From an uncultured Anaerolineales bacterium (GTDB taxonomy: Bacteria > Chloroflexota > Anaerolineae > Anaerolineales > UBA4823), in NCBI GenBank assembly GCA_937968125.1, contig CALBUI010000163.1, forward strand, positions 1 to 43,311: DNA of 43,311 nucleotides, given 5' to 3'. The position numbers were made by a program, and so were the translations under genes. Within the stretch, counting starts at the first letter, position 1. Each line of letters starts with the position of its first letter. The notes under the pieces were generated by a model that saw only the letters and a list, made by a program, of their open reading frames with translations, did not search any database and was not told where the DNA came from. Of this stretch, positions 28,138 to 43,159 are shown in pieces.

Positions 28138-29958
28138 ATGCAGCCAATCCTCAGGGTTAATTTGTCCACAGGGGACATTGATCAATTCCAAGTTCCAAGA
28201 GAATGGGAGGTTGAATATCTGGGGGGTGCTTCACTCGCCGCTCGTCTGCTGTATGAGTATTTGACACCGGATTTGGATCCCCTGTCTCCAGAGGCGCCAT
28301 TACTCTTTCTGAACGGTCCGTTATCCGGAACCGCTGGTCCTGCTGTTGGACGCTACGTTATTTGCGGACGCTCTCCAGCAACGCATTTATGGGGAGAATC
28401 AAACTGCGGTGGTTTTTGGGGTGTAGAGCTGAGAAAAACTGGTTTCGATGGTTTGTTCATCACTGGAGCATCCAAAGATCCAATCTATCTATGGATCAAG
28501 TATGGAGAAGTCCAGATCAAACCGGCGGACCACCTATGGGGAATGGAGACATACCAAACACAAGATACATTAATTGAAGAACTTGGCATTGCAGGAACCA
28601 GAGTGGCCTGTATCGGACCTGCCGGCGAATCATTAATCCCATTTTCGTTAATTCTCAGTGACCATGGTAGAGTCGCTGGCAGGACTGGGATGGGAGCGAT
28701 CATGGGCTCTAAAAATCTAAAAGCTGTCGCGGTAAAAGGCAATGGCTCGATACCGGTTCATGATCTAGACAGATATGCATCATTTAGGTCGAACGTTAAC
28801 CGTGAATTGCGGGATGATGCAATGTCACAAGTTATTCGGGATTTGGGTACTGCAGGTATTGTCGATTATTTTGATTATCTAGCATTCATGCCCAAGAAGT
28901 ATTACACCCAAGGAAATTCAAGAGGCGATCTAAATATCTCTGGTGTGAATATTAATAACTCAATCAATGTGGGGGTGTCTGCTTGTCATGGCTGTGTGAT
29001 TGCATGCGGAAGAGTAGTAGACCTTGGCGATGATAGTAAGAGGAAAGGTGCGGAATTTGAAACCCTGGTTGGATTTGGTCCAAATTTGTTAATTGATGAC
29101 CCAATTCGGATCACTTTATTTGGTGAAATGTGTGACAGGAAAGGGGTGGACAGTATCAGTATGAGCAATGTGATTGGCCTGGCAATGTTGCTCTTTGAGC
29201 AAGGAAAAATCGGAGTCAAAGAGACGGATGGAATGGAAATTCGATGGGGAGACATGGATGTTGTGGATAAATTGATCTGGAAGACTGTTCACAAAGATGG
29301 ATTTGGAAAATATCTATCCATGGGCGCAAGGGAATTCGGCCGTCATTTCAATGCAGAGAGAGCTGCCATTCAAGTGAATGGTCTAGAAGCTGCTTATCAA
29401 GATCCTCGGGGAGCTTCAGGTATGGGACTAATATATGCAACCTCCCCACGGGGTGCGTGTCACAATCAGTCAGATTACTATTTGGTAGAAGTTGGTCAAG
29501 TTTATTCAAGTCTGGGAATGACTTTACAATCCCCACGTGGCGGAATCGAGAAAGTCTTAAATATCGTCATCCATCAAGACTGGCGGACTGTATTTAATGC
29601 TCTGGTTATGTGCATTTTTGCGAATGTTCCACCAGATAACCTTACTGAGTTGATAAATTCCGCGGTTGGTCTGGATTTGTCAGTTGAAGAAATGTTGAAA
29701 ATTGGTGAACGCGGCTGGAATTTGAAGCGGGTGATCAACAATCGATTGGGATTAAGCAGTGTTGACGACAAAATTCCTGATGGCTTTTTGAGACCATACG
29801 AAGATGATGAAGATGAGTTTATTCCAGATTTTCAAGGCATGCTGAAAGAGTACTACAGTCTCCGGGGCTGGGATGCTCAAAGTGGTTATCCTGATCTAAA
29901 AAAGCTGGAAGATTTAAACCTGGGTTGGGTTATGGAAGACCTTGAATTGTTAGAGTAA
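28138..29958 (+). CDS. Aldehyde:ferredoxin oxidoreductase
   Basis: A 606-residue enzyme of the tungsten-pterin AOR family, which oxidises aldehydes to acids with ferredoxin. The N-terminal domain has ILRVNLSTGDI, LGGASLAARLLYE and GPLSGT, and the cofactor loops include ESNCGGFWGVELRKTGFDGL and GRVAGRTGMGAIMGSKNLKA. The 4Fe-4S cluster ligands are Cys283, Cys286 and Cys290 (CHGCVIAC) and Cys492 near the C-terminus, at nearly the same position as the last ligand of the archaeal enzyme. All expected parts are present. No MoaD-like or ferredoxin gene is adjacent, unlike in many AOR loci. AAAAGGA lies 14 bases upstream of the ATG, rather far. It implies at least partly anaerobic metabolism. The aldehyde is unknown. 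Confidence 0.92.
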   Translation: MQPILRVNLSTGDIDQFQVPREWEVEYLGGASLAARLLYEYLTPDLDPLSPEAPLLFLNGPLSGTAGPAVGRYVICGRSPATHLWGESNCGGFWGVELRKTGFDGLFITGASKDPIYLWIKYGEVQIKPADHLWGMETYQTQDTLIEELGIAGTRVACIGPAGESLIPFSLILSDHGRVAGRTGMGAIMGSKNLKAVAVKGNGSIPVHDLDRYASFRSNVNRELRDDAMSQVIRDLGTAGIVDYFDYLAFMPKKYYTQGNSRGDLNISGVNINNSINVGVSACHGCVIACGRVVDLGDDSKRKGAEFETLVGFGPNLLIDDPIRITLFGEMCDRKGVDSISMSNVIGLAMLLFEQGKIGVKETDGMEIRWGDMDVVDKLIWKTVHKDGFGKYLSMGAREFGRHFNAERAAIQVNGLEAAYQDPRGASGMGLIYATSPRGACHNQSDYYLVEVGQVYSSLGMTLQSPRGGIEKVLNIVIHQDWRTVFNALVMCIFANVPPDNLTELINSAVGLDLSVEEMLKIGERGWNLKRVINNRLGLSSVDDKIPDGFLRPYEDDEDEFIPDFQGMLKEYYSLRGWDAQSGYPDLKKLEDLNLGWVMEDLELLE

Positions 29959-32653: not shown

Positions 32654-35191
32654 TTATTCTTCAGTTTTCGGGATGGGGAGAACTCCATTAAACCATCTGC
32701 TTAATTCAGTTTGGGCTGGTTTCCCATGAATTGAAGCTGATTTATCTCGCAGCTCCGCTGGTGAGTAGTAACCAGTGGAAACAAATCCATCAATCCATTC
32801 TCGATCGTTTATTGCATTCATTAAGGCCTGATATGCAAGCTGCTGTTCCCCCAAATCTGAAATCACTTCCGGATTGTCAGGATGAGGTGGGTCAAGATAA
32901 CCAGGATCGAAACAAGTGCTTTCTCCGGTTTCGTCAGGTACTACCAGGCACCCCTGCAGGCTGCCGCTGGCCGAAGGATATCCTGCTGCAATGACAATCG
33001 GCATTTCCAGGCTGATGTCCAGTAGGAACACTTCGCTATCCAGGTATTCTGCAGCAGCTGCACTCAACTGTGGGAGGTCTGCATCAGGTTGCTCGGTAAG
33101 GGGCAGCGACCACATCAAGTAAACCTGGTCCAGGTCCTCAATGAATGGAGGGGGGGTGATGCCTGACTTTGTTGTCGGCAATGCCCAAAATAACGTACCC
33201 TGGTAACGCTCTCTCACTTCTGAGATGAGAGTCCGCCAGCGATCTTCAGCATCTGCTGGAACTCCGGAGGGCGTGCCATCTGGGAGTGCACCGCCTGGCA
33301 GCGCTGGAGATACCCAATCGCCTCCGATGACCAGACCGCTAGCACCATCTTGTTCAGCTTTATCTGCGAATGTGAGGATGAAATTGCGGTACCGTTCAAA
33401 CCAGACCTGCCACCAGGGAAAATCTCTGGGTGAAGTTGACCACCAGTCATCGATACTTTCCGGGAAATTTGGGGTGGGACTATAAGCCACATTTAGATCA
33501 AACGATCGGGCTTTATCGGCTGCAGAGCTTAGATCTGACCAGGAAATATCTTTTCCTGTGACTGCCTCCAGCACAGGAGGGGTTTGACGAGTGTATGTCC
33601 ATGTCGGTGACAGGAACATCCAGTTTGCACCAAGAGTATTTACTTCTCGGAAGCTCACTGGGAAGCGAGGAGTTATCGAAGGATGATGGTACTGTTGGTA
33701 CTGAATCCCGCTAATAAATCCTTCAGATCGAGGCTTTATCTCGGTAGGTTCACCTTGCTCAATCGATTCACCGAGCTGCATCCAATACCAGGATTCAACG
33801 GTGTCATTTATTGTTTGAGTTCCACCAGTGATTTCGATCGTGCGTCCAGTTGGGGAACTTCCCGGTGTTGTAATGTCGTCTGCTCTGCCACACTGGTCAT
33901 TCCTGCAGTAGCGATAAATGAATTGTTCCGACTGGGTAATTGGGCTGAAAAGCATATACACCCAGTGGTCTTCGCCAAGTTTCCACATGGGTATCGGCTC
34001 AGTCCATCCAAAGGGGTTGAATTGGATCGAGACATGGTCGAAATCTGGTGTGGAAGGTGGAATGGTTAGATCAAACAAGATCGGCCCGGCGGTGGAGTTA
34101 TCTCCCCAATTATCAATTTGATCGTCAATGACCATAGCGACATCCGGGACAGTCATCGTCCTGACTCGAAAATCCCCACTCGGTGTATATTCGGCATTCC
34201 AAAAACCATCCCCAAGCGTGTATTTGTATTCAAGAAATGCTCCAGCCGGAAGCTCGATTTCTAAGGCATAACGTCCATCATTGAGGGGAACTAAGGTTGG
34301 CATGCGAGATGCCAGCGTATTTACCCCGCCTGATAAATCGGCGAATGTGTTCCCAAGTTGGTCGAGATTTCCTGCTAGGCGGATGGGCACTGCAGGCAAT
34401 GTCCCTTCAGGTACAGTTGCAGTGAAGATTAGCTTCACTAATGGAGCAGGGTTCAATTGTATATCAGCCGGAGTGGTCGATTTATCTGCCACAATGGCGC
34501 CTTGCTGGTAAGTATTGTATCCGCCATCGAATGCGTACAGTACCAGGTTGTGTAGCCCGGGATGTAAACCCTCTAAGAGATAATCACCCGTGGAGGAGGT
34601 TACAGATTGGCTTCCTCCCGCAGTAACCAACAAATTAGGAATTGGCGAACCATCTTCTTGATTGGTCACTTTCCCCATGATGCGACCAGTCGAACCAACA
34701 TATGTTCCATCACTCCAAGAACTGACGATATCCTTCACGGTTCCTGGGCCATCAACCCGGTAAATGCGGTACCTTACTGGCCTCTGATCCGTCGTGTGTT
34801 CTTCGAAGATAGAATCACCCTGACGTGAATAGCGATATTTTAAATTCGCTCCAACTGGGAATGGGAGGGTTATCGAATAGGTGAAGTCATCGATTTGTTG
34901 CATTTCCCTGCGGCTGATGTTCAGTGCCAGCCCGGTGACTTCATCCAGAAGGCTGAGCAAGACAGGTTGACCGGGTGGTGTATCTCCGGGCACATCGACC
35001 TGGAAGGTCACCGTGGAAAGTGGATCAATTTCGATCGGTTCAGTTGTTGCATCGGGTTGCTCGGGTTCGAATGACACTAATGGGGGCAAGGATTGAGAAC
35101 ACCCTGTAAGGATCATTGCGATACAGATGGTTAGAACCAGGATCAAAAAAGATGGTTTTTTTTCAAATGGGAGGGAGATGTTACTCGTCAT
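32654..35191 (-). CDS. Large lipoprotein with starch-binding-like modules and an inactive-looking glycosidase barrel
   Basis: An 845-residue predicted lipoprotein (lipobox ILTGC, Cys31). A CBM20/48-like beta module (about 57-135) begins VTFQVDVPGDTPPGQPVLL and ends KYRYSRQGD. A carboxypeptidase-regulatory-like domain follows (about 165-235, GRIMGKVTNQEDGSPIPNLL), then two more starch-binding-like modules (about 240-350 and 355-460). The C-terminal 360 residues look like a GH113-type TIM barrel with GISGIQYQQYHH-like start, WWQVWFERYRNFILTFADKA and GLVIGGDWVSPALPGG. In that family I expect Glu where Asp625 is, and a second Glu where Ala735 is (PIVIAAGYPS). It may thus bind rather than cut glycans. 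ATG at 35191 overlaps the preceding stop (ATGA). Confidence 0.75.
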   Translation of the reverse strand: MTSNISLPFEKKPSFLILVLTICIAMILTGCSQSLPPLVSFEPEQPDATTEPIEIDPLSTVTFQVDVPGDTPPGQPVLLSLLDEVTGLALNISRREMQQIDDFTYSITLPFPVGANLKYRYSRQGDSIFEEHTTDQRPVRYRIYRVDGPGTVKDIVSSWSDGTYVGSTGRIMGKVTNQEDGSPIPNLLVTAGGSQSVTSSTGDYLLEGLHPGLHNLVLYAFDGGYNTYQQGAIVADKSTTPADIQLNPAPLVKLIFTATVPEGTLPAVPIRLAGNLDQLGNTFADLSGGVNTLASRMPTLVPLNDGRYALEIELPAGAFLEYKYTLGDGFWNAEYTPSGDFRVRTMTVPDVAMVIDDQIDNWGDNSTAGPILFDLTIPPSTPDFDHVSIQFNPFGWTEPIPMWKLGEDHWVYMLFSPITQSEQFIYRYCRNDQCGRADDITTPGSSPTGRTIEITGGTQTINDTVESWYWMQLGESIEQGEPTEIKPRSEGFISGIQYQQYHHPSITPRFPVSFREVNTLGANWMFLSPTWTYTRQTPPVLEAVTGKDISWSDLSSAADKARSFDLNVAYSPTPNFPESIDDWWSTSPRDFPWWQVWFERYRNFILTFADKAEQDGASGLVIGGDWVSPALPGGALPDGTPSGVPADAEDRWRTLISEVRERYQGTLFWALPTTKSGITPPPFIEDLDQVYLMWSLPLTEQPDADLPQLSAAAAEYLDSEVFLLDISLEMPIVIAAGYPSASGSLQGCLVVPDETGESTCFDPGYLDPPHPDNPEVISDLGEQQLAYQALMNAINDREWIDGFVSTGYYSPAELRDKSASIHGKPAQTELSRWFNGVLPIPKTEE

Positions 35192-35958
35192 AATTGGAAA
35201 CCCCAATCTACAACTTTGAGTAGAAGCTCAAGGTTTAGAATTTGTGAAAGGGGCACTCGTCCTTTGGAATCTCGGTACATTTCTACCACCAGGTACCCGG
35301 AATCTACCCATATCTTTTTTATTGTATTCCAGGGGATTTTTTTCTTTGCAATGGACAAATAATTCTTATCTAGCGAAATACGCCCAAAATGAAGATTTTC
35401 CCCTTGAAGGAATCCGGTTTTCATCTCTGGCCATATAATGGGATAGAGATTGGATTTGATAATTCTTATCAACTTGGGAACTCCTTCAAGCCGGTTGGAC
35501 AATTCGATTGGTCGACCATATTTTGGAATTATTCTGCCACTTGGTATCGTGCGCAAGTTTTTTCCTAATAAAGTTGACCTGGTTGCAGATGTTGATATAC
35601 CAAATAAATCTGACCATAGATAAGAACGCTGTTGAAAAAGTCTGTTCCTGTAACGAATCCCTTCGCTGAAGACTTCGAGTCGCTGAAACGACCGCAATAT
35701 TAGAAACAATAAATAGGTTGCCAACACAATCAACAGCAATATTCCAAGAGCAAACCAACCTCGAGACCGCAGAAGAGCTAGTGCAGGGCCATGCTGCTGG
35801 AATGCGTTTCCAGCAAGCAGCGCGCCATAGGTGAAGCAGAACAAGGTCAACAATCCAGCTGGAAAAATAATTAGCAGCCAGGTTTTGAATCCAATTGGCC
35901 GGCAGCGAAAGTTGGCAATCTTTTTTCCAAGAACTGGTTGCACCCTCTGTGATGTCAT
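35188..35958 (-). CDS. Membrane protein with bacterial PH-like segments
   Basis: A protein of about 256 residues. Two membrane helices (LLIIFPAGLLTLFCFTYGAL and GWFALGILLLIVLATYLLFL) form a hairpin. A cytoplasmic part follows, with a RLEVFSEGIRYRNRLFQQRS strand pair and a YLWSDLFGI motif. A similar second half contains HFGRISLDKNYLSIAKKKIP and WNTIKKIWVDSGYLVV. Each half resembles a bPH domain (strand, 'W.dI..i' motif). I know no function. ATG at 35958 has GGAG only 3 bases upstream; a TTG at 36021, inside the preceding gene, is an alternative. It is coupled by a 4-base ATGA overlap to the large lipoprotein gene, so the two products may act together at the envelope. Confidence 0.7.
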   Translation of the reverse strand: MTSQRVQPVLGKKIANFRCRPIGFKTWLLIIFPAGLLTLFCFTYGALLAGNAFQQHGPALALLRSRGWFALGILLLIVLATYLLFLILRSFQRLEVFSEGIRYRNRLFQQRSYLWSDLFGISTSATRSTLLGKNLRTIPSGRIIPKYGRPIELSNRLEGVPKLIRIIKSNLYPIIWPEMKTGFLQGENLHFGRISLDKNYLSIAKKKIPWNTIKKIWVDSGYLVVEMYRDSKGRVPLSQILNLELLLKVVDWGFQL

Positions 35959-35986
35959 TATCTCCGGTTTCTCTGTTTCGGATTTC

Positions 35987-36454
35987 TCAACCTGCGACCA
36001 GCTCGAAATGTTGGATATCAAGGATTGAACCTTCCCGATCCGTTTTGGGTTTGAAGACCGCCTGGGCTTTCATGCCAATTTCAATTTCTTGAGAGTCTGG
36101 AGACGCTAGTCTATGGATAATGCCACCGTCTCCAAGCCTGATAAAGGCGATTGTTTCTGGTTCAGTGCGGTGAGAACCATCATAATTAGCATACAAATAG
36201 GTGAAGGTTACGATTTCTCCGGTGGTACCGACATCCACCCATTCATCTAACTGGTCAAGGCAACGTTCGCAAAACATTGAGGCGGGCACGTAAGTCCTTT
36301 CACAGTTGCTGCATCGGGTGCCGTAGATTTTTCCATCATCTTTAATCGCCCGAAAGAAGCGCTCGCCAGCTACACCAACGGTATACCGGTTGGTAACCTG
36401 CATCTCATCTTGCCAGGCTGAAGGAGCAGTTGGATCTCGTTCTAGTAGGGTCAT
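35987..36454 (-). CDS. DUF35 zinc-ribbon/OB-fold protein
   Basis: A 155-residue acyl-CoA-associated protein. A rubredoxin-like zinc ribbon has Cys48/51 and Cys62/65 (YGTRCSNCERTYVPASMFCERC). The OB-fold follows with GEIVTFTYLYANYDG, IAFIRLGDGGIIHRLA and IGMKAQAVFKPK. DUF35 proteins bind and support thiolase-fold enzymes, as in archaeal HMG-CoA synthesis and in the steroid side-chain aldolase Ltp2. The start at 36454 is favoured: GAGAGG lies 7 bases upstream and only one base separates it from the preceding stop; the open frame itself extends to 36517. It is the second of two consecutive DUF35 genes after two thiolase-like genes, a pairwise arrangement suggesting two complexes or one four-protein complex. 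Confidence 0.88.
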   Translation of the reverse strand: MTLLERDPTAPSAWQDEMQVTNRYTVGVAGERFFRAIKDDGKIYGTRCSNCERTYVPASMFCERCLDQLDEWVDVGTTGEIVTFTYLYANYDGSHRTEPETIAFIRLGDGGIIHRLASPDSQEIEIGMKAQAVFKPKTDREGSILDIQHFELVAG

Positions 36455-36455
36455 T

Positions 36456-36974
36456 TCATTGCCTCTCTTCGAAAGGTTTGAAGTATAGAATGTCTGTAAT
36501 GGCACCCTGGCGTTCATCAGGAGATTTCCACACAGCTTTCACCCGCATACCGATCTTAATCTCTTGTGGTTCCACTTCGCCTAGTTTGTGCATGATGCCA
36601 TGCAGCGGGGAGGCGCCATCCAACTCGATCACTGCCGGAATCTCTGGATCTTTAATGCGGCGAACATCCCAGGTCACATAGCAAAGTGAGAAAGTATTGA
36701 CAGTCCCTGTGTCCTCCAGCAGGATATACTTCTCCATCGGCCGGAAACACAATTCACAAATGTTTCTCGGGGGGACTACAGTTCTCCGGCAGTTGGCACA
36801 GTAGGAGCCAAAAATGACACCATCTTTTAATCCTGCAAGATATTTGCCAATTCCAATACCGGTATCCCACGAAAACTTGCCAGGCATTTGATCGTGAATC
36901 GAGAGCACTATTCCATCACGAATATCTTTTTCACTCAAAGGTGTGCCTGGATAGAATGTAATTTTGTCAGACAT
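36456..36974 (-). CDS. DUF35 zinc-ribbon/OB-fold protein
   Basis: A 172-residue DUF35 protein with an N-terminal extension of about 50 residues. Zinc ligands are Cys59/62 and Cys73/76 (GSYCANCRRTVVPPRNICELC). OB-fold strands follow: TGTVNTFSLCYVTWDVRR, PAVIELDGASPLHGIMHKL and IGMRVKAVWKS. Clear similarity to the following DUF35 gene indicates an old tandem duplication: both keep the zinc site and an IxIGMxxxAV(W/F)K motif. It starts 10 bases after the thiolase-like gene with GGAGG just upstream, so both are translated from the same mRNA. It is probably the partner of one of the two thiolase-like proteins. Confidence 0.88.
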   Translation of the reverse strand: MSDKITFYPGTPLSEKDIRDGIVLSIHDQMPGKFSWDTGIGIGKYLAGLKDGVIFGSYCANCRRTVVPPRNICELCFRPMEKYILLEDTGTVNTFSLCYVTWDVRRIKDPEIPAVIELDGASPLHGIMHKLGEVEPQEIKIGMRVKAVWKSPDERQGAITDILYFKPFEERQ

Positions 36975-36984
36975 ATTTACCTCC

Positions 36985-38151
36985 TCAACGCCCCATAATC
37001 ACGACAGTTCCGACTTGCATCAAATCGCCCCACGCCTGGGCAAGCCCTCGTTTCGGCTGACCGGGTACCTGCCGATCGCCAGCTTCTCCCCGCAGCTGCC
37101 AGAATAGTTCAGCAATTTTCATTAACCCTGCAGCAGCGATAGGATTTCCTACTCCCAATAAGCCTCCGGATGGGCACACGGGCATATTGCCGGTGCGTTG
37201 GGTAATTCCATCAATCACCATTTGGGGCGCTTCACCTCTATCCGCCAGCAGGAGCCCTTCCATATGGTGAAGCTCTTTGTAATCAAAAGGATCGTAGGGT
37301 TCAACAATATTAATCTGCTTGCGGGGTTCTTTGATGCCAGCCATGTCATATGCCATCCTGGCAGCATATTCGACATAACGTGGATAAGCCAGATCGCGGT
37401 TGGTCCAATAAGCGGTGTCCAGATTCCAGCCCACCCCTTCAATCCATACTGGTATATCGGTAATCCTTTTGGCCACATGCTCGGCTGCGAGGACAAGGGC
37501 TACCGCTCCATCAGAAACAGGGCTGACATCCAACCGGTTTACCGGCCAGGCTAATACTTCTGAATTCAATACGTCTTCGACAGTGATGTCGGGATCTCCG
37601 AGCAGGGCGCTGGGGTGATCTGCTGCATTGCGCTTATTCTTGACCGCTACCTGGGCAATATCTTCTTTGGAGATGCCATAGGTTTGCATGTAGCGATTCA
37701 TCTCGAGTGCAAAGATCCATAATAAATTAGGCTTCAAAGCTCGCTCTGTTGTATGGTCGAATATCGTCAAGAATGCACCTTGTGCATGCGGGTAATAACT
37801 GGACATCTTCTCTTCAGCCACAACTAGTACTACATCAAATAATCCCGAAGCGACATGGTACCAACCCTGAATAGGTGCAAAAACTCCTGTCCCGCCGCCG
37901 ACATAAGATCGCATGTAGGGCTTTCTCCAGGCTCCCGCACCATCACTCAAATATTCACCATTCATGTGAACACCGTCAAAAGCATCAGGGGCAGTCCCCA
38001 GGCAGACGGCTTCTACATCATCCATGGTCATCTCGCAAGATTGGAGAGCCATACTCGAGGCATGCCAGGAAAGCTCTTTTCCGGTTTCGAGTGCGCGACG
38101 GACGAATTTGGTCATTCCCGCGCCGACTACGGCTACTTTACGCATAGACAT
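36985..38151 (-). CDS. Thiolase-superfamily protein without the catalytic cysteine (SCP-x/Ltp2-like)
   Basis: A 388-residue thiolase-fold protein of the SCP-x type. The start KVAVVGAGMTKF is typical. At the nucleophile loop it reads SYVGGGTGVFAPIQGWYHVASG (about 83-103) without Cys. The GHPxGA histidine is replaced by Asn336 in GGLLGVGNPIAAAGL. The end QLRGEAGDRQV also marks the subgroup. True thiolase chemistry is therefore unlikely. The steroid aldolase Ltp2, a Cys-less relative that needs a DUF35 partner, is the closest known model. Conserved Tyr and His in EPYDPFDYKELHHMEGL may serve catalysis. ATG at 38151 is supported by GGAG 7 bases upstream; two more in-frame ATGs follow. It stands 11 bases after the second thiolase-like gene. 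Confidence 0.88.
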   Translation of the reverse strand: MSMRKVAVVGAGMTKFVRRALETGKELSWHASSMALQSCEMTMDDVEAVCLGTAPDAFDGVHMNGEYLSDGAGAWRKPYMRSYVGGGTGVFAPIQGWYHVASGLFDVVLVVAEEKMSSYYPHAQGAFLTIFDHTTERALKPNLLWIFALEMNRYMQTYGISKEDIAQVAVKNKRNAADHPSALLGDPDITVEDVLNSEVLAWPVNRLDVSPVSDGAVALVLAAEHVAKRITDIPVWIEGVGWNLDTAYWTNRDLAYPRYVEYAARMAYDMAGIKEPRKQINIVEPYDPFDYKELHHMEGLLLADRGEAPQMVIDGITQRTGNMPVCPSGGLLGVGNPIAAAGLMKIAELFWQLRGEAGDRQVPGQPKRGLAQAWGDLMQVGTVVIMGR

Positions 38152-38162
38152 ATGTACACTCC

Positions 38163-39314
38163 TCAATTGCTCAAGATCATTACTGCGCCGCTGGCTGTTG
38201 GTACCCCTCGCCAGGAATGAGCTAAACCTACGCTGACCCCATCCAGCTGCCTGGAACCAGCTTCACCCCTGAGCTGCAAGATTACTTCAAGCGCACGAGC
38301 AAGGCCGTTCGCATCGAGTAAATTACCCATACCTAAACTGCCTCCGGATACATTTACCGGAAAGTCACCATCTCTGTGGGTGAGACCTTCCTCCGTCACC
38401 AGCCCAGCTTCGCCTGATTGAAAAAGTCCCAACTCCTCTAAAGATTGCAGCTCCTTGTATGCATACAAATCACTCACCTCAGCAAAGTCTACTGTCCGGT
38501 ACGGGTGGTGAATTCCCGCCTGGCGATAGGCCATTCTGGCTGCGTTCTTGGTGTATTTGGCACTCGACCAATCGCGGTTTTCTAATCCCGGTGAATCATT
38601 ATTCCATCCTGCGCCGATAATCCAAATTGGATTTTCAGATAATGCGTTAGCTTTTTCTTCACTGGCCAGGACCATTACAATTGCACCATCAGAATGTTCT
38701 GCAGTTTCACGCACACCGAGTGGCCAGGATAGTGGAGGTCCAGAAAGGACATCGTTCACTGTCAATTCAGCCCCGAAAGGTGCTGAAGGATTATACAAAG
38801 CGTTCCAGCGGTTTTTGACGACGACCTGTGCACATTGTTCTTGTGTTGACCTGCTGTCAAAAAGGTAGCGATTCATTTCCATTCCCCCAATGAAATGTGA
38901 ATTCAGCCTCAGTGGCCTGTTCAAAACTGGATCCTGGGCATACGCAGTCACGTCATCATGAGTTAACAGATTAGAGGCTTTGCTGTGTCCCTCCACAGCT
39001 ACCAGCGAGAATTGGCCTGTCTTGACCAACATGAAGGCAGTCGCCAAACCGTGTAATCCATCACCAGTGATTGTGTGCATCGGCTTGAGAACTGCACCAA
39101 GCTGATCCGGTGTATATTCATCAAATATACTCGTCCCTTCGTGAAAATCTTCGGCAACTGTGACATAGCTCTCAATATCCTTCCGCGGATCGACGCCAGC
39201 ATCAAAATATGCGCGTCTGGCAGCTTCATACATCAATTCTTTGTATGAGTATTCGGGTGTGACCGCCCGAAATCCAGACCATCCGATCCCGATTATTGCA
39301 ACGCGATCACTCAT
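38163..39314 (-). CDS. Thiolase-superfamily protein without the catalytic cysteine (second copy)
   Basis: A 383-residue thiolase-fold protein related to the next gene downstream. It has VAIIGIGWSGF at the start. The nucleophile region TITGDGLHGLATAFMLVKTG (about 81-100) again lacks Cys. The C-terminal loop GGSLGMGNLLDANGLARALE has Asn in place of the GHP histidine. EVSDLYAYKELQSLEELGL corresponds to the EPYDPFDYKELHH region of its neighbour. The two have diverged well, so they may form a heteromer with one catalytic and one structural member. AAGGAGG 6 bases before the ATG at 39314 gives a firm start; a TTG at 39320 is rejected. Confidence 0.87.
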   Translation of the reverse strand: MSDRVAIIGIGWSGFRAVTPEYSYKELMYEAARRAYFDAGVDPRKDIESYVTVAEDFHEGTSIFDEYTPDQLGAVLKPMHTITGDGLHGLATAFMLVKTGQFSLVAVEGHSKASNLLTHDDVTAYAQDPVLNRPLRLNSHFIGGMEMNRYLFDSRSTQEQCAQVVVKNRWNALYNPSAPFGAELTVNDVLSGPPLSWPLGVRETAEHSDGAIVMVLASEEKANALSENPIWIIGAGWNNDSPGLENRDWSSAKYTKNAARMAYRQAGIHHPYRTVDFAEVSDLYAYKELQSLEELGLFQSGEAGLVTEEGLTHRDGDFPVNVSGGSLGMGNLLDANGLARALEVILQLRGEAGSRQLDGVSVGLAHSWRGVPTASGAVMILSN

Positions 39315-39357
39315 TGGCAACCTCCTTGAAAGTATGGCATTAAATCATTATGTGAAT

Positions 39358-40259: not shown

Positions 40260-41153
40260 TTATGGTGATGGAGAAATCGAGTCGCTTTGGGACTCCTGTT
40301 CTCTTAAATCTCTTGCACGAGATCGTTCTGCAAACTTAGCTAAAACTACCCCCAAAAAATAAAGGATGATCATAGGTCCCATCACCAGACCCATGTTGAC
40401 AGGATCGATCGTAGGCGTGATCATTGCAGATAGTATCGCAATAATTACCACAGCCAAACGCCAATTTTCGATCAGGACTTGCGCTCTAATTAATCCTACT
40501 CGTGCAAGAACATAAATTAACAACGGAAATTGGAACGCTATCCCAATCCAGAACATGATCGAAGTCACAAAACGAATATATGATGAAGGCCGAATTTGAC
40601 TGGTAATACCGCCGAAGTTCACCAGGAAAGGAATTGCAGTCGGCAGCAACACAAAATATGCGAATGCCATGCCACCGATGAAGAATATCACTGCAATTGG
40701 GATGGCATAAAGACCGAAGATACGAGAGTCACGGCTCAAACCTGGTGCGATAAACAACCACAATTCAAGGATGATGTAGGGCAAGGTGATGGCAAACGCA
40801 GTCAACAGGGCGACCCGCATAAATGTTCCGATCGGCTCTGTCGGATCGATAGCCACGAGGGCTTCTATACCCCCAACTGGAAGCGCTAAGAGATTGATGA
40901 TCTGGGAAGCGAATGCGAATGCGACCACTGTCATTAAAATCAAAGCTAACGCGGCTCTGAACAAGTGTTTCCGCAAGGCATCGAGATGGAGTAATAAGCT
41001 TTGAGGATTGCTGACTGCTTTTTCTAAAGAATCCCCCAACGGGGTGTCTTCAGGTTCATCAGACAGGAATGATTTAACTTCGTTGATCATCGTACGGAGC
41101 CAGCGGAATGGGGCTAAAATGATATTCTTTATACCGCGCAAAAATATCCGCAT
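40260..41153 (-). CDS. tatC: Twin-arginine translocase subunit TatC
   Basis: A 297-residue membrane protein of the Tat export system, which moves folded proteins. Six hydrophobic helices are visible from about residue 68. The TatC signature HLDALRKHLFRAALALIL marks the core start (about 56), with PYIILELWLFIAPGLS in the first cytoplasmic loop region and Glu in FQFPLLIYVLARVGL-type helices. An N-terminal extension of about 55 residues precedes the core, with a possible amphipathic segment (IILAPFRWLRTMI). It begins 3 bases after tatA and is co-transcribed with it. In the window no product has an evident twin-arginine signal. Confidence 0.95.
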   Translation of the reverse strand: MRIFLRGIKNIILAPFRWLRTMINEVKSFLSDEPEDTPLGDSLEKAVSNPQSLLLHLDALRKHLFRAALALILMTVVAFAFASQIINLLALPVGGIEALVAIDPTEPIGTFMRVALLTAFAITLPYIILELWLFIAPGLSRDSRIFGLYAIPIAVIFFIGGMAFAYFVLLPTAIPFLVNFGGITSQIRPSSYIRFVTSIMFWIGIAFQFPLLIYVLARVGLIRAQVLIENWRLAVVIIAILSAMITPTIDPVNMGLVMGPMIILYFLGVVLAKFAERSRARDLREQESQSDSISPSP

Positions 41154-41156
41154 AGT

Positions 41157-41564
41157 TTAGGCTTCGCTATCTGGCGATGAAGGTGGATCTGGTGGAAGTT
41201 CCTCGTCGGTCATCTCGCTGTCTGGCATTGGTTTCCCAATAGTTGGAGGAGTGGTCCAAGAGTCGATATCTTCTTGCCATTTCGACAATTCAGGATTCAA
41301 ATCGTCTTGTAAAGCGCTCTTGGTAGCATCTTGAATATCTTTGAGGTCTTCTTCTAAACCAGCGTCCCGGATTAGCTTATTGGGCAGGGTTTTTAATTCA
41401 TCAGATGTACGGGTCACGGCTCGCCAGGTGGGGGAGGTAACTACCTGGCGTAAGAACTTCCCGATCGTTCGCCCGGCTTTCACCATATCAGAAGGACCCA
41501 ATACAATGAGGGCAATGATGAGGATGAATATTAATTCAAGAGGACCTACTCCTAGGAAATCCAT
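41157..41564 (-). CDS. tatA: Sec-independent translocase protein TatA/TatB
   Basis: A 135-residue protein with the TatA/B layout: N-terminal membrane helix LGVGPLELIFILIIALIVLGP, then an amphipathic helix DMVKAGRTIGKFLRQVV, then an acidic tail. The length and long tail favour TatB, but in organisms with a single gene the distinction is loose. It lies 2 bases after nusB and 3 bases before tatC. Only one TatA/B-like gene is present in the window, so a second copy may lie elsewhere or this one may serve both roles. Confidence 0.9.
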   Translation of the reverse strand: MDFLGVGPLELIFILIIALIVLGPSDMVKAGRTIGKFLRQVVTSPTWRAVTRTSDELKTLPNKLIRDAGLEEDLKDIQDATKSALQDDLNPELSKWQEDIDSWTTPPTIGKPMPDSEMTDEELPPDPPSSPDSEA

Positions 41565-41566
41565 AA

Positions 41567-42010
41567 CTATGTTGGGTTGTGGAGGCGTCTTAATGACTGC
41601 CGGATTTCATTTTGCCGGGAAGCAAGACTCCCCAATACACCATTTATAAACCTTGGTGAGCTGTCAGATCCAAAAACCTTGGCAAGCTCAACGGCTTCAT
41701 TTATGGCTACTTTAATGGGAATATTCTCGCTGACTGCAAATTCCCATAGTGCAATTCGTAAAATGTTGCGGTCAATTGTCGCGATTTGATCGAGCGGCCA
41801 TTCTTGGGCGTGCTCAGCAATGAACGCGTCCAGCTCCTCGACGATTGGCCAGACACCTAAAGCAATTTGACTGACAAAGTCGCCCATTTTTTCATCGAGC
41901 TCATTTTCAGACAAACGATTGCTGATCACCAGTAAAGGTGGGTGGTCAACCATGTCAATTTCGTAAAGTGCCTGCAGGGCAACTGCTCGCGCCCTGGTTC
42001 GAGCTTTCAT
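41567..42010 (-). CDS. nusB: Transcription antitermination factor NusB
   Basis: A 147-residue all-helical protein of the NusB family, which binds boxA RNA with NusE and promotes rRNA transcription. Family marks are the N-terminal [29 protein letters not shown] in the middle, and [18 protein letters not shown] followed by [12 protein letters not shown] at the end. Length is normal. The start codon overlaps the asp23 stop in an ATGA arrangement. The asp23-nusB order is common in Gram-positive and related bacteria. Confidence 0.96.
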
Positions 42011-42381
42011 ATAGTTTCAGCAACCTCGGTTGCCACTGGGTATGCAATATCTTCAACATGGACATTAATCACACCAACTTGCATTCCAATCATGTCTGTA
42101 ATTGCACGGGAAACCGCGGATTGAATATTTCGACCTACCTCTCGTATGTTGACATCAGAATCAAGGATAACGTATATATCGGTGTAAACGACATCGTCCA
42201 CTACCTCGACATGCAGGCCATCCTCCTCCTGGCGATGAAGGAGCATTGTTCTGAACCGCCTGGAGGGAACCTGACTCATCTGGTTGACCCCGTGAACATC
42301 AAGAGTAGTCAGCCGTGTTATGGTCAATATGACATCTATCGAGATCGTAGTTTTTCCGGGTGTAACAGATTTATCACTCAT
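42007..42381 (-). CDS. Asp23/Gls24 family envelope-stress protein
   Basis: A 124-residue protein of the Asp23 (YloU/AmaP-linked) family. The typical central part is present as [26 protein letters not shown] followed by [16 protein letters not shown], with the terminal [14 protein letters not shown] strand. The first 45 residues differ from the usual family start. Family members coat the membrane or act in cell-wall homeostasis. It is preceded by fabG with a 13-base gap and coupled to nusB by a 4-base overlap. AGGA-type sequence (CCGGAGGAC) lies just before the ATG. Confidence 0.9.
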
Positions 42382-42394
42382 AGTCCTCCGGAAA

Positions 42395-43159
42395 TTACAT
42401 CATGGTAATTCCGCCATCAACACCTAGAACTTGTCCGGTAATATAGGCGGCCTGATCTGAAGCCAGAAATGCAACCGCATCGGCTATCTCTTGCGTTTCG
42501 CCTTTCCGTCCTAAGGGCACCATTGAAAGAATCGCGTCTTTAGCTTCTTCTGGGACACCTTCCCAGATATCCGTCTCCACATAGCCAGCTGCGATCGCAT
42601 TTACAGTGATATTGCGAGAGCCAACTTCTCTGGCCAGTGCCTTTGTAAATCCAATTTGTCCAGCTTTTGAAGCCGAGTAATTTGTTTGCCCAGGATTGCC
42701 CATCTGACCAGCGATCGAGGTGATATTTATTATCCGCCCATATCGTTTTCGCATCATATGTCTAACTGCAGTTTTAGAGCAGTTGAATGTGCTTTTCAAG
42801 TTTGTATCCTGAACGATATCCCAATCATCTTCACTCATCATCATGATCAATTTGTCTCTGGTTATGCCGGCATTATTCACTAAGATATGGAGTCCATCGA
42901 AAGTATCGACAGAAAACTTAACCAGGTCTTGGGCTTCTTTGAATTTTGATACATCCGCTTGATGAACTGCCGCTTTTCCCCCTGAGGCAGTGATATCCGC
43001 CACGACCTGATCGGCTGCTTCCGAAGATTTTAGATAATTGACTACTACGACAGCCCCTCGCAGTGCCAGTTCTTTTGCGATGGTTCGCCCGATTCCTCTC
43101 GAGGATCCGGTAACGATGGCAACTTTTTCTTCAAGGGAGAGACTGCTTGGTAAGGTCAT
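42395..43159 (-). CDS. fabG: 3-oxoacyl-[acyl-carrier-protein] reductase FabG
   Basis: A 254-residue short-chain dehydrogenase that reduces 3-oxoacyl-ACP with NADPH in fatty acid synthesis. It shows the cofactor motif VTGSSRGIGRTIAKEL, the NNAG motif (LVNNAGITRDKLIMMM), the catalytic Ser in INITSIAGQMG, the Tyr/Lys pair in NYSASKAGQIGF, and the C-terminal GVDGGITMM typical of FabG. All catalytic residues are present. GGAG lies 6 bases before the ATG. No other fab or acp gene is seen to its left. It is the first gene of the long minus-strand run. Confidence 0.94.
   Translation of the reverse strand: MTLPSSLSLEEKVAIVTGSSRGIGRTIAKELALRGAVVVVNYLKSSEAADQVVADITASGGKAAVHQADVSKFKEAQDLVKFSVDTFDGLHILVNNAGITRDKLIMMMSEDDWDIVQDTNLKSTFNCSKTAVRHMMRKRYGRIINITSIAGQMGNPGQTNYSASKAGQIGFTKALAREVGSRNITVNAIAAGYVETDIWEGVPEEAKDAILSMVPLGRKGETQEIADAVAFLASDQAAYITGQVLGVDGGITMM

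Follow-up and report, generated by a model that had tools for sequence, protein, structure and literature searches.

A lipoprotein encoded on the minus strand at 32,654-35,191 of the window (the whole stretch of DNA analysed, 43,311 nucleotides) carries, behind its N-terminal modules, a GH113-type (β/α)8 barrel from which the family's nucleophile glutamate has been deleted and in which the acid/base glutamate is replaced by Asp. It is very probable, as judged from the sequence, that the GH113 mechanism of glycoside cleavage is not available to the barrel, and on balance we favour the view that the lipoprotein is a surface-anchored pseudoglycosidase whose dead barrel serves in binding or docking. 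All features described below lie on the minus strand unless marked otherwise.

Architecture of the lipoprotein and identity of its barrel

The reading frame, which is supported by orthologues and by dN/dS, opens with an ATG at 35,191 and encodes 845 residues. Its lipobox cysteine, Cys31 (LTGC; 35,099-35,101), is invariant in all 41 relatives covering that position, and with its signal peptide and this cysteine the 845-residue protein is a predicted lipoprotein. A sequence-only reading of this DNA had described a modular glycan lipoprotein here, and both the frame and the LTGC lipobox are indeed present. The AlphaFold model of the full-length protein (mean pLDDT 88.7, pTM 0.88) has β-rich segments at the sites where that reading had placed its modules, with the barrel following them.

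One of the modules had been described as a carboxypeptidase-regulatory-like domain, and residues 171-246 (34,454-34,681) match CarboxypepD_reg (PF13620) with 32.7 bits, over the curated cut-off of 32.3; the same domain is found in 42 of 44 relatives at E 0.01. Three further modules had been called starch-binding-like, a description to which the sequence gives weak and uneven support. The support is clearest, though sub-threshold, for the highly conserved module D3 (residues 250-366; 34,094-34,444), which is CBM20/X25-like: CBM_20 is matched weakly in 12 of 28 relatives, the glucoamylase starch-binding domain 1ac0 is matched with E = 0.0034, and the window protein itself reaches CBM_20 or X25, both below cut-off (18.9 bits for X25 against a cut-off of 27). 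Module D1 (residues 58-160; 34,712-35,020), a starch-binding-like β-sandwich as seen in its AlphaFold strands, is the weaker case, with a weak CBM_20 match in 4 of 28 relatives. Module D4 (residues 370-470; 33,782-34,084), which has an invariant C429 and C434 and is β-rich in the full model, gave no match when searched alone by sequence, but it has the pattern 'Y-[KR]-Y ... R ... W' that D1, D3 and D4 each repeat. The resemblance to CBM20 and pullulanase X25 starch-binding domains is thus one in which D3 aligns, D1 aligns more weakly, and the matches lie below the family cut-offs. When the full model was used for a fold search, the barrel and unrelated β-sandwich repeat proteins with low TM scores took up most of the matches, and the N-terminal modules were not identified. 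We also note that residues 163-267 (34,391-34,705) weakly match a model of an anammox S-layer glycoprotein (24 bits, far below cut-off), which probably reflects a shared CarboxypepD_reg-like fold.

The barrel (residues 493-836; 32,684-33,715) had been proposed to be of the GH113 type, and sequence and structure agree on this. PF22612, the GH113 family of Pfam, matches residues 513-669 with 44.8 bits (cut-off 27) and is matched by all 44 orthologous barrels, with no second Pfam family at E 0.01; when a profile of these 44 barrels was compared with solved structures, GH113 mannanases were the sole significant matches (E 8.9e-25 to 6.5e-23), the best being 5ylh (E 8.9e-25). The AlphaFold model of the barrel (pLDDT 94.4) superimposes on GH113 chains with Z 32.2-32.9 and an rmsd of 2.3-2.6 over 293-300 residues, and the next family by structure is represented by a GH5 mannosidase at Z 23.2. 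The structure-based comparison with GH113 and related barrels that the earlier reading had asked for therefore ranks GH113 at the top, and the alternative that would have undone that reading, a barrel of another glycoside hydrolase family with intact residues elsewhere, was rejected: all 11 GH113 entries come first, about 9 Z units ahead. Residues with structural roles are kept as in GH113 (W584, Y601, W652, D688, Q783, W799, K824, and P825). A loop between C748 and C760 (32,912-32,950) is specific to the family, with Cys in 37 of the 37 rows that have the loop, and a C748-C760 disulfide is probable. No second GH113 match was found in the window's genome.

Loss of catalytic and substrate-site residues

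The control set consisted of 15 GH113 barrels of catalytic type, drawn from genomes belonging to the same class and all strong matches to PF22612 (191-266 bits); each of them has Glu at both catalytic positions, in VGTEL for the acid/base and in IFTEIGYRS for the nucleophile. Aligned with these barrels, Asp625 (VIGGDW; 33,317-33,319), at the end of β4, occupies the position of the acid/base Glu, just as had been read from the sequence. The companion claim, that Ala735 takes the place of the second catalytic Glu, is right in that the Glu is absent but not in the substitution. At the end of β7, VIA-AGYPS in the window protein faces IFTEIGYRS in the catalytic barrels, and MAFFT places a one-residue gap opposite the Glu; hhalign, run on two profiles and independent of MAFFT, places a gap at the same Glu (probability 99.95%, E 2e-38). 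Because both aligners put the gap there, between A735 and A736 (codons at 32,984-32,989), the nucleophile has been deleted rather than substituted.

An orthologue survey at the two positions, which had also been called for, shows that this gap is common to all 135 family barrels aligned, in 57 of 57 rows of an existing alignment and in 78 of 78 rows added onto it, and that position 625 drifts. Once near-copies were removed, the 135 rows came to 109 sequences; among these, 103 have A, G or S at position 735 and 3 an acidic residue there, all have a hydrophobic residue at 736, and at position 625 there are 61 with D, 25 with E, and 23 with another residue (A, P, T, K, S, Y, F or G). Acidic residues near the nucleophile were considered as replacements and rejected, as those at 735 in 3 relatives and at 737 in ten more (of the 135 rows) are not in the nucleophile register. 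One barrel, L070, has Glu at columns 625 and 735, the latter one residue ahead of the nucleophile register, and is possibly a divergent or independently altered barrel.

Other residues of the GH113 substrate site are, by alignment, also lost from the window barrel. All 15 catalytic-type barrels have Tyr at column 696 and Trp at column 806; the window has L and T, and across the family these columns are mostly A/E/L and R, respectively. Matched by motif to PcMan113 numbering, they correspond to residues of the Tyr204 and Trp282 type, which are listed among the substrate-binding residues that are strictly conserved in GH113 (PMC10992819). The family has conserved strand-end residues of its own (W531, W626, W669, W694, and Y738), to which most members add E497 and R806, found in 76 and 74 of 78 close relatives. 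The window protein is unusual within the family in having Gln497 on β1 (33,701-33,703) and Thr806 on β8 (32,774-32,776), the latter being Arg in most of the family and Trp in catalytic GH113. E497 and R806 tend to disappear jointly (Fisher p 2e-9, a raw association). We do not claim a co-varying salt bridge between them: 5 independent pairs on supported branches gave a median sign-test p of 0.375, which is not significant.

Taken against the GH113 β-mannanases (AaManA, 3civ/4cd6; AxMan113A, 5ylh; BaMan113A, 7dv7), with which it shares the barrel fold and sequence family, the window barrel thus differs in its deleted nucleophile, in having Asp for the acid/base Glu, and in the loss of the sugar-site Tyr and Trp, and also in being part of a lipoprotein, where four modules precede it, and in its Cys-Cys loop after β7.

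Distribution, constraint, and genomic setting

Public genomes contain 266 relatives, of which 80 were kept, all from Chloroflexota-type and mostly Anaerolineae assemblies; the names of orders and families used here are those in the titles of these records. A match to the lipoprotein is present in 49 of 61 near relatives, and in a class-wide draw the full N-terminal half was found in 19 of 20 genomes of the order, with only single-module matches to it in other orders. The feature is real and is additionally order-wide, a point missed from the sequence alone: the gene is single-copy and near-universal in the order. In a quick tree of the barrels, which has several long branches, the 109 family members are split from 16 other GH113 sequences by a branch with SH-aLRT 100.

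Purifying selection acts on the gene, its barrel included. For the barrel, dN/dS is 0.066 between the window protein and an 80%-identical relative (L002), an approximate value as dS is high, and 0.23 between two other relatives (L003 and L004); for the modules it is lower, at 0.03-0.08 where measurable. Mean identity to the window across relatives is likewise 0.49-0.55 for the modules and 0.44 for the barrel. Two relatives have a barrel-less form (L047:1239-2729 and L048:1406-2731), located in the tat locus; because the reading frame there closes behind module D4, with another gene starting at once, the barrel is dispensable in that lineage.

The commonest setting of the gene, which had escaped the earlier reading, is a tat-type operon and not a sugar-utilisation locus. 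In 47 of 80 loci tatC lies immediately upstream of the lipoprotein gene, the order being fabG - asp23 - nusB - tatA - tatC - lipoprotein, and in 19 of 80 the immediate upstream neighbour is a gene for a DUF6585 protein. The window is of the latter kind, with a DUF6585 PH-like membrane protein (PF20226, 84 bits) at 35,188-36,021, and it also keeps the fabG-asp23-nusB-tatA-tatC cluster at 40,260-43,159: tatC (40,260-41,153; PF00902, 182.6 bits), a tatA/B-like gene (41,157-41,564; PF02416, 20.8 bits, just under the cut-off of 21), nusB (41,567-42,010; PF01029, 115 bits), an asp23/Gls24 family gene (42,007-42,381; PF03780, 72.5 bits), and a fabG-like SDR gene (42,395-43,159; PF13561, 229.6 bits). 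The DUF6585 stop and the lipoprotein start overlap in the four bases ATGA, so that the coupling to a bPH-like membrane protein noted earlier is there; it is not unusual, as had been supposed, because 4-base overlaps recur with both DUF6585 (9 of 19 loci) and tatC (10 of 47). A literature search on DUF6585 found no paper.

Between the tatC cluster and the lipoprotein gene, the window contains a citrate-lyase-like gene, two thiolase-like genes, two OB-fold genes, and the DUF6585 gene. The thiolase-like genes (36,985-39,320) and the OB-fold genes, which are of the ChsH2 type (35,987-36,974), are each in tandem and inserted between tatC and DUF6585, and genes of both kinds also occur upstream of DUF6585 in several relatives. 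Downstream of the lipoprotein gene, some relatives have a gene that by eye resembles penicillin acylase (cluster 7, 29 loci). Elsewhere in the window, on the plus strand at 28,138-29,958, is an aldehyde ferredoxin oxidoreductase-like gene of 606 codons' worth of protein (606 aa), which matched its NCBIfam model partially.

The lipoprotein signal in the window lacks a twin-arginine (RR) motif, and the protein does not class as a Tat substrate. RR is present in the signals of 26 of 47 tatC-adjacent relatives versus 3 of 19 DUF6585-adjacent ones, counts that are confounded by descent, and some of the relatives with RR signals may be Tat-exported.

Proposed role and alternatives

The barrel originates in an active glycosidase family, appears to have lost its catalytic residues and is retained under purifying selection, and is in that sense a predicted pseudoglycosidase. 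Because the deletion is common to all members, the gene is under purifying selection, and it is single-copy and near-universal in the order, it looks like an old, stable pseudoglycosidase rather than an enzyme with altered chemistry. That the protein may bind or sense had been suggested before, and with both Glu missing, binding is indeed predicted from the sequence to be likelier than enzymatic activity.

The GH113 nucleophile was lost through a one-residue deletion, which the alignment and the tree support as an event in the family's ancestor, and the substrate site was rebuilt with other conserved residues. In the working model that we favour, the protein would be exported and its Cys lipidated on the membrane's outer face, the β-sandwich modules would form a stalk touching a glucan of the envelope or outside the cell, and the barrel, no longer catalytic, would act as a binding or docking domain, such that the whole protein keeps a glycan or a partner close to the membrane. 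Since the gene adjoins tatC and DUF6585 and not glycan-uptake genes, its context suggests a constitutive envelope function rather than foraging. Because a barrel-less form exists and the constraint on the barrel is weaker, we favour the modules over the barrel as the functional core. Two observations count against this model: the modules reach starch-binding families below threshold, and the barrel changes more quickly than they do and is absent from one lineage, a pattern equally compatible with a spacer or scaffold.

We give distinctly less credence to the possibility that the barrel has no sugar ligand and is an inert scaffold or a domain for protein docking, the function lying with the conserved modules (which might, for example, anchor the protein to the cell wall or S-layer, or touch DUF6585 or Tat). 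It would account for the barrel-less orthologue in the same tat locus and for the stronger conservation and constraint of the modules relative to the barrel, and the weak S-layer match of residues 163-267 is in line with it; moreover, the usual replacement of the sugar-site Trp by Arg, together with the usual Glu497 in the same site region, could fill the pocket. The strand-end aromatics (W531, W626, W669, W694, and Y738), however, are kept beyond the needs of a plain spacer.

That the barrel is an enzyme of altered chemistry had also been raised. Such an enzyme would use another set of residues, for example Glu497, Asp/Glu625 and Arg806, and we regard it as improbable because no carboxylate pair is conserved throughout the family. 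Although E497 and R806 are nearly constant in close relatives and D or E is found at 625 in 86 of 109 sequences, the tree requires at least 27 changes of state (D, E or other) at position 625, which is neither D nor E in about a fifth of the family, and the window protein has Gln at 497 and Thr at 806. E497 with D/E625 was accordingly rejected as an alternative pair, and the family alignments yielded no carboxylate pair that is both conserved in the family and present in the window protein. A decaying gene, in which the missing residues are simple degeneration, could explain a barrel dN/dS above that of the modules and an in-frame stop in one relative (L013), but is the least credible reading and is largely refuted by conservation across the order: dN/dS is low, the 266 relatives have long intact frames, structural residues are invariant, and all aligned members have the deletion in common.

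The pseudoglycosidase that we favour would have parallels elsewhere. Surface glycan-binding lipoproteins of Bacteroidetes utilisation loci are lipid-anchored, modular, and non-catalytic; they are alike by general description, although here the gene adjoins tatC or DUF6585 and not sugar-uptake genes. Pseudoglycosidases as such are known from other glycoside hydrolase families, and some that bind glycans are on record (PMC7828330). The chi-lectins YKL-39 and YKL-40 and klotho are examples of pseudoglycosidases (PMC7828330). These are likewise glycosidase-derived barrels without catalytic residues that are kept by selection, but they are animal proteins of other GH families whose ligand is known. 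In the literature searched, no description of a GH113 pseudoglycosidase was found, which does not show that none exists, and no paper was recognisably about this lipoprotein family.

With GH113 above its Pfam cut-off, automatic annotation would label these proteins mannan-degrading enzymes across an abundant environmental order, in hundreds of its genomes, and the residues present indicate that this would be wrong. The family offers a defined case in which the deletion of one residue would have made a glycosidase into a non-enzyme, and it can be compared both with catalytic cousins from its own class and with a barrel-less form. The main interest lies in the order-wide conservation and the tat-operon context: conserved beside tatC, the lipoprotein is a candidate core envelope protein of a group with a little-understood cell surface. 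More speculatively still, it may be an envelope protein found throughout the order in Anaerolineales-type Chloroflexota, in which one ancestral deletion gave a GH113 barrel the role of a receptor or docking domain; encoded together with the Tat translocase, it would have a functional link to export or to the surface layer.
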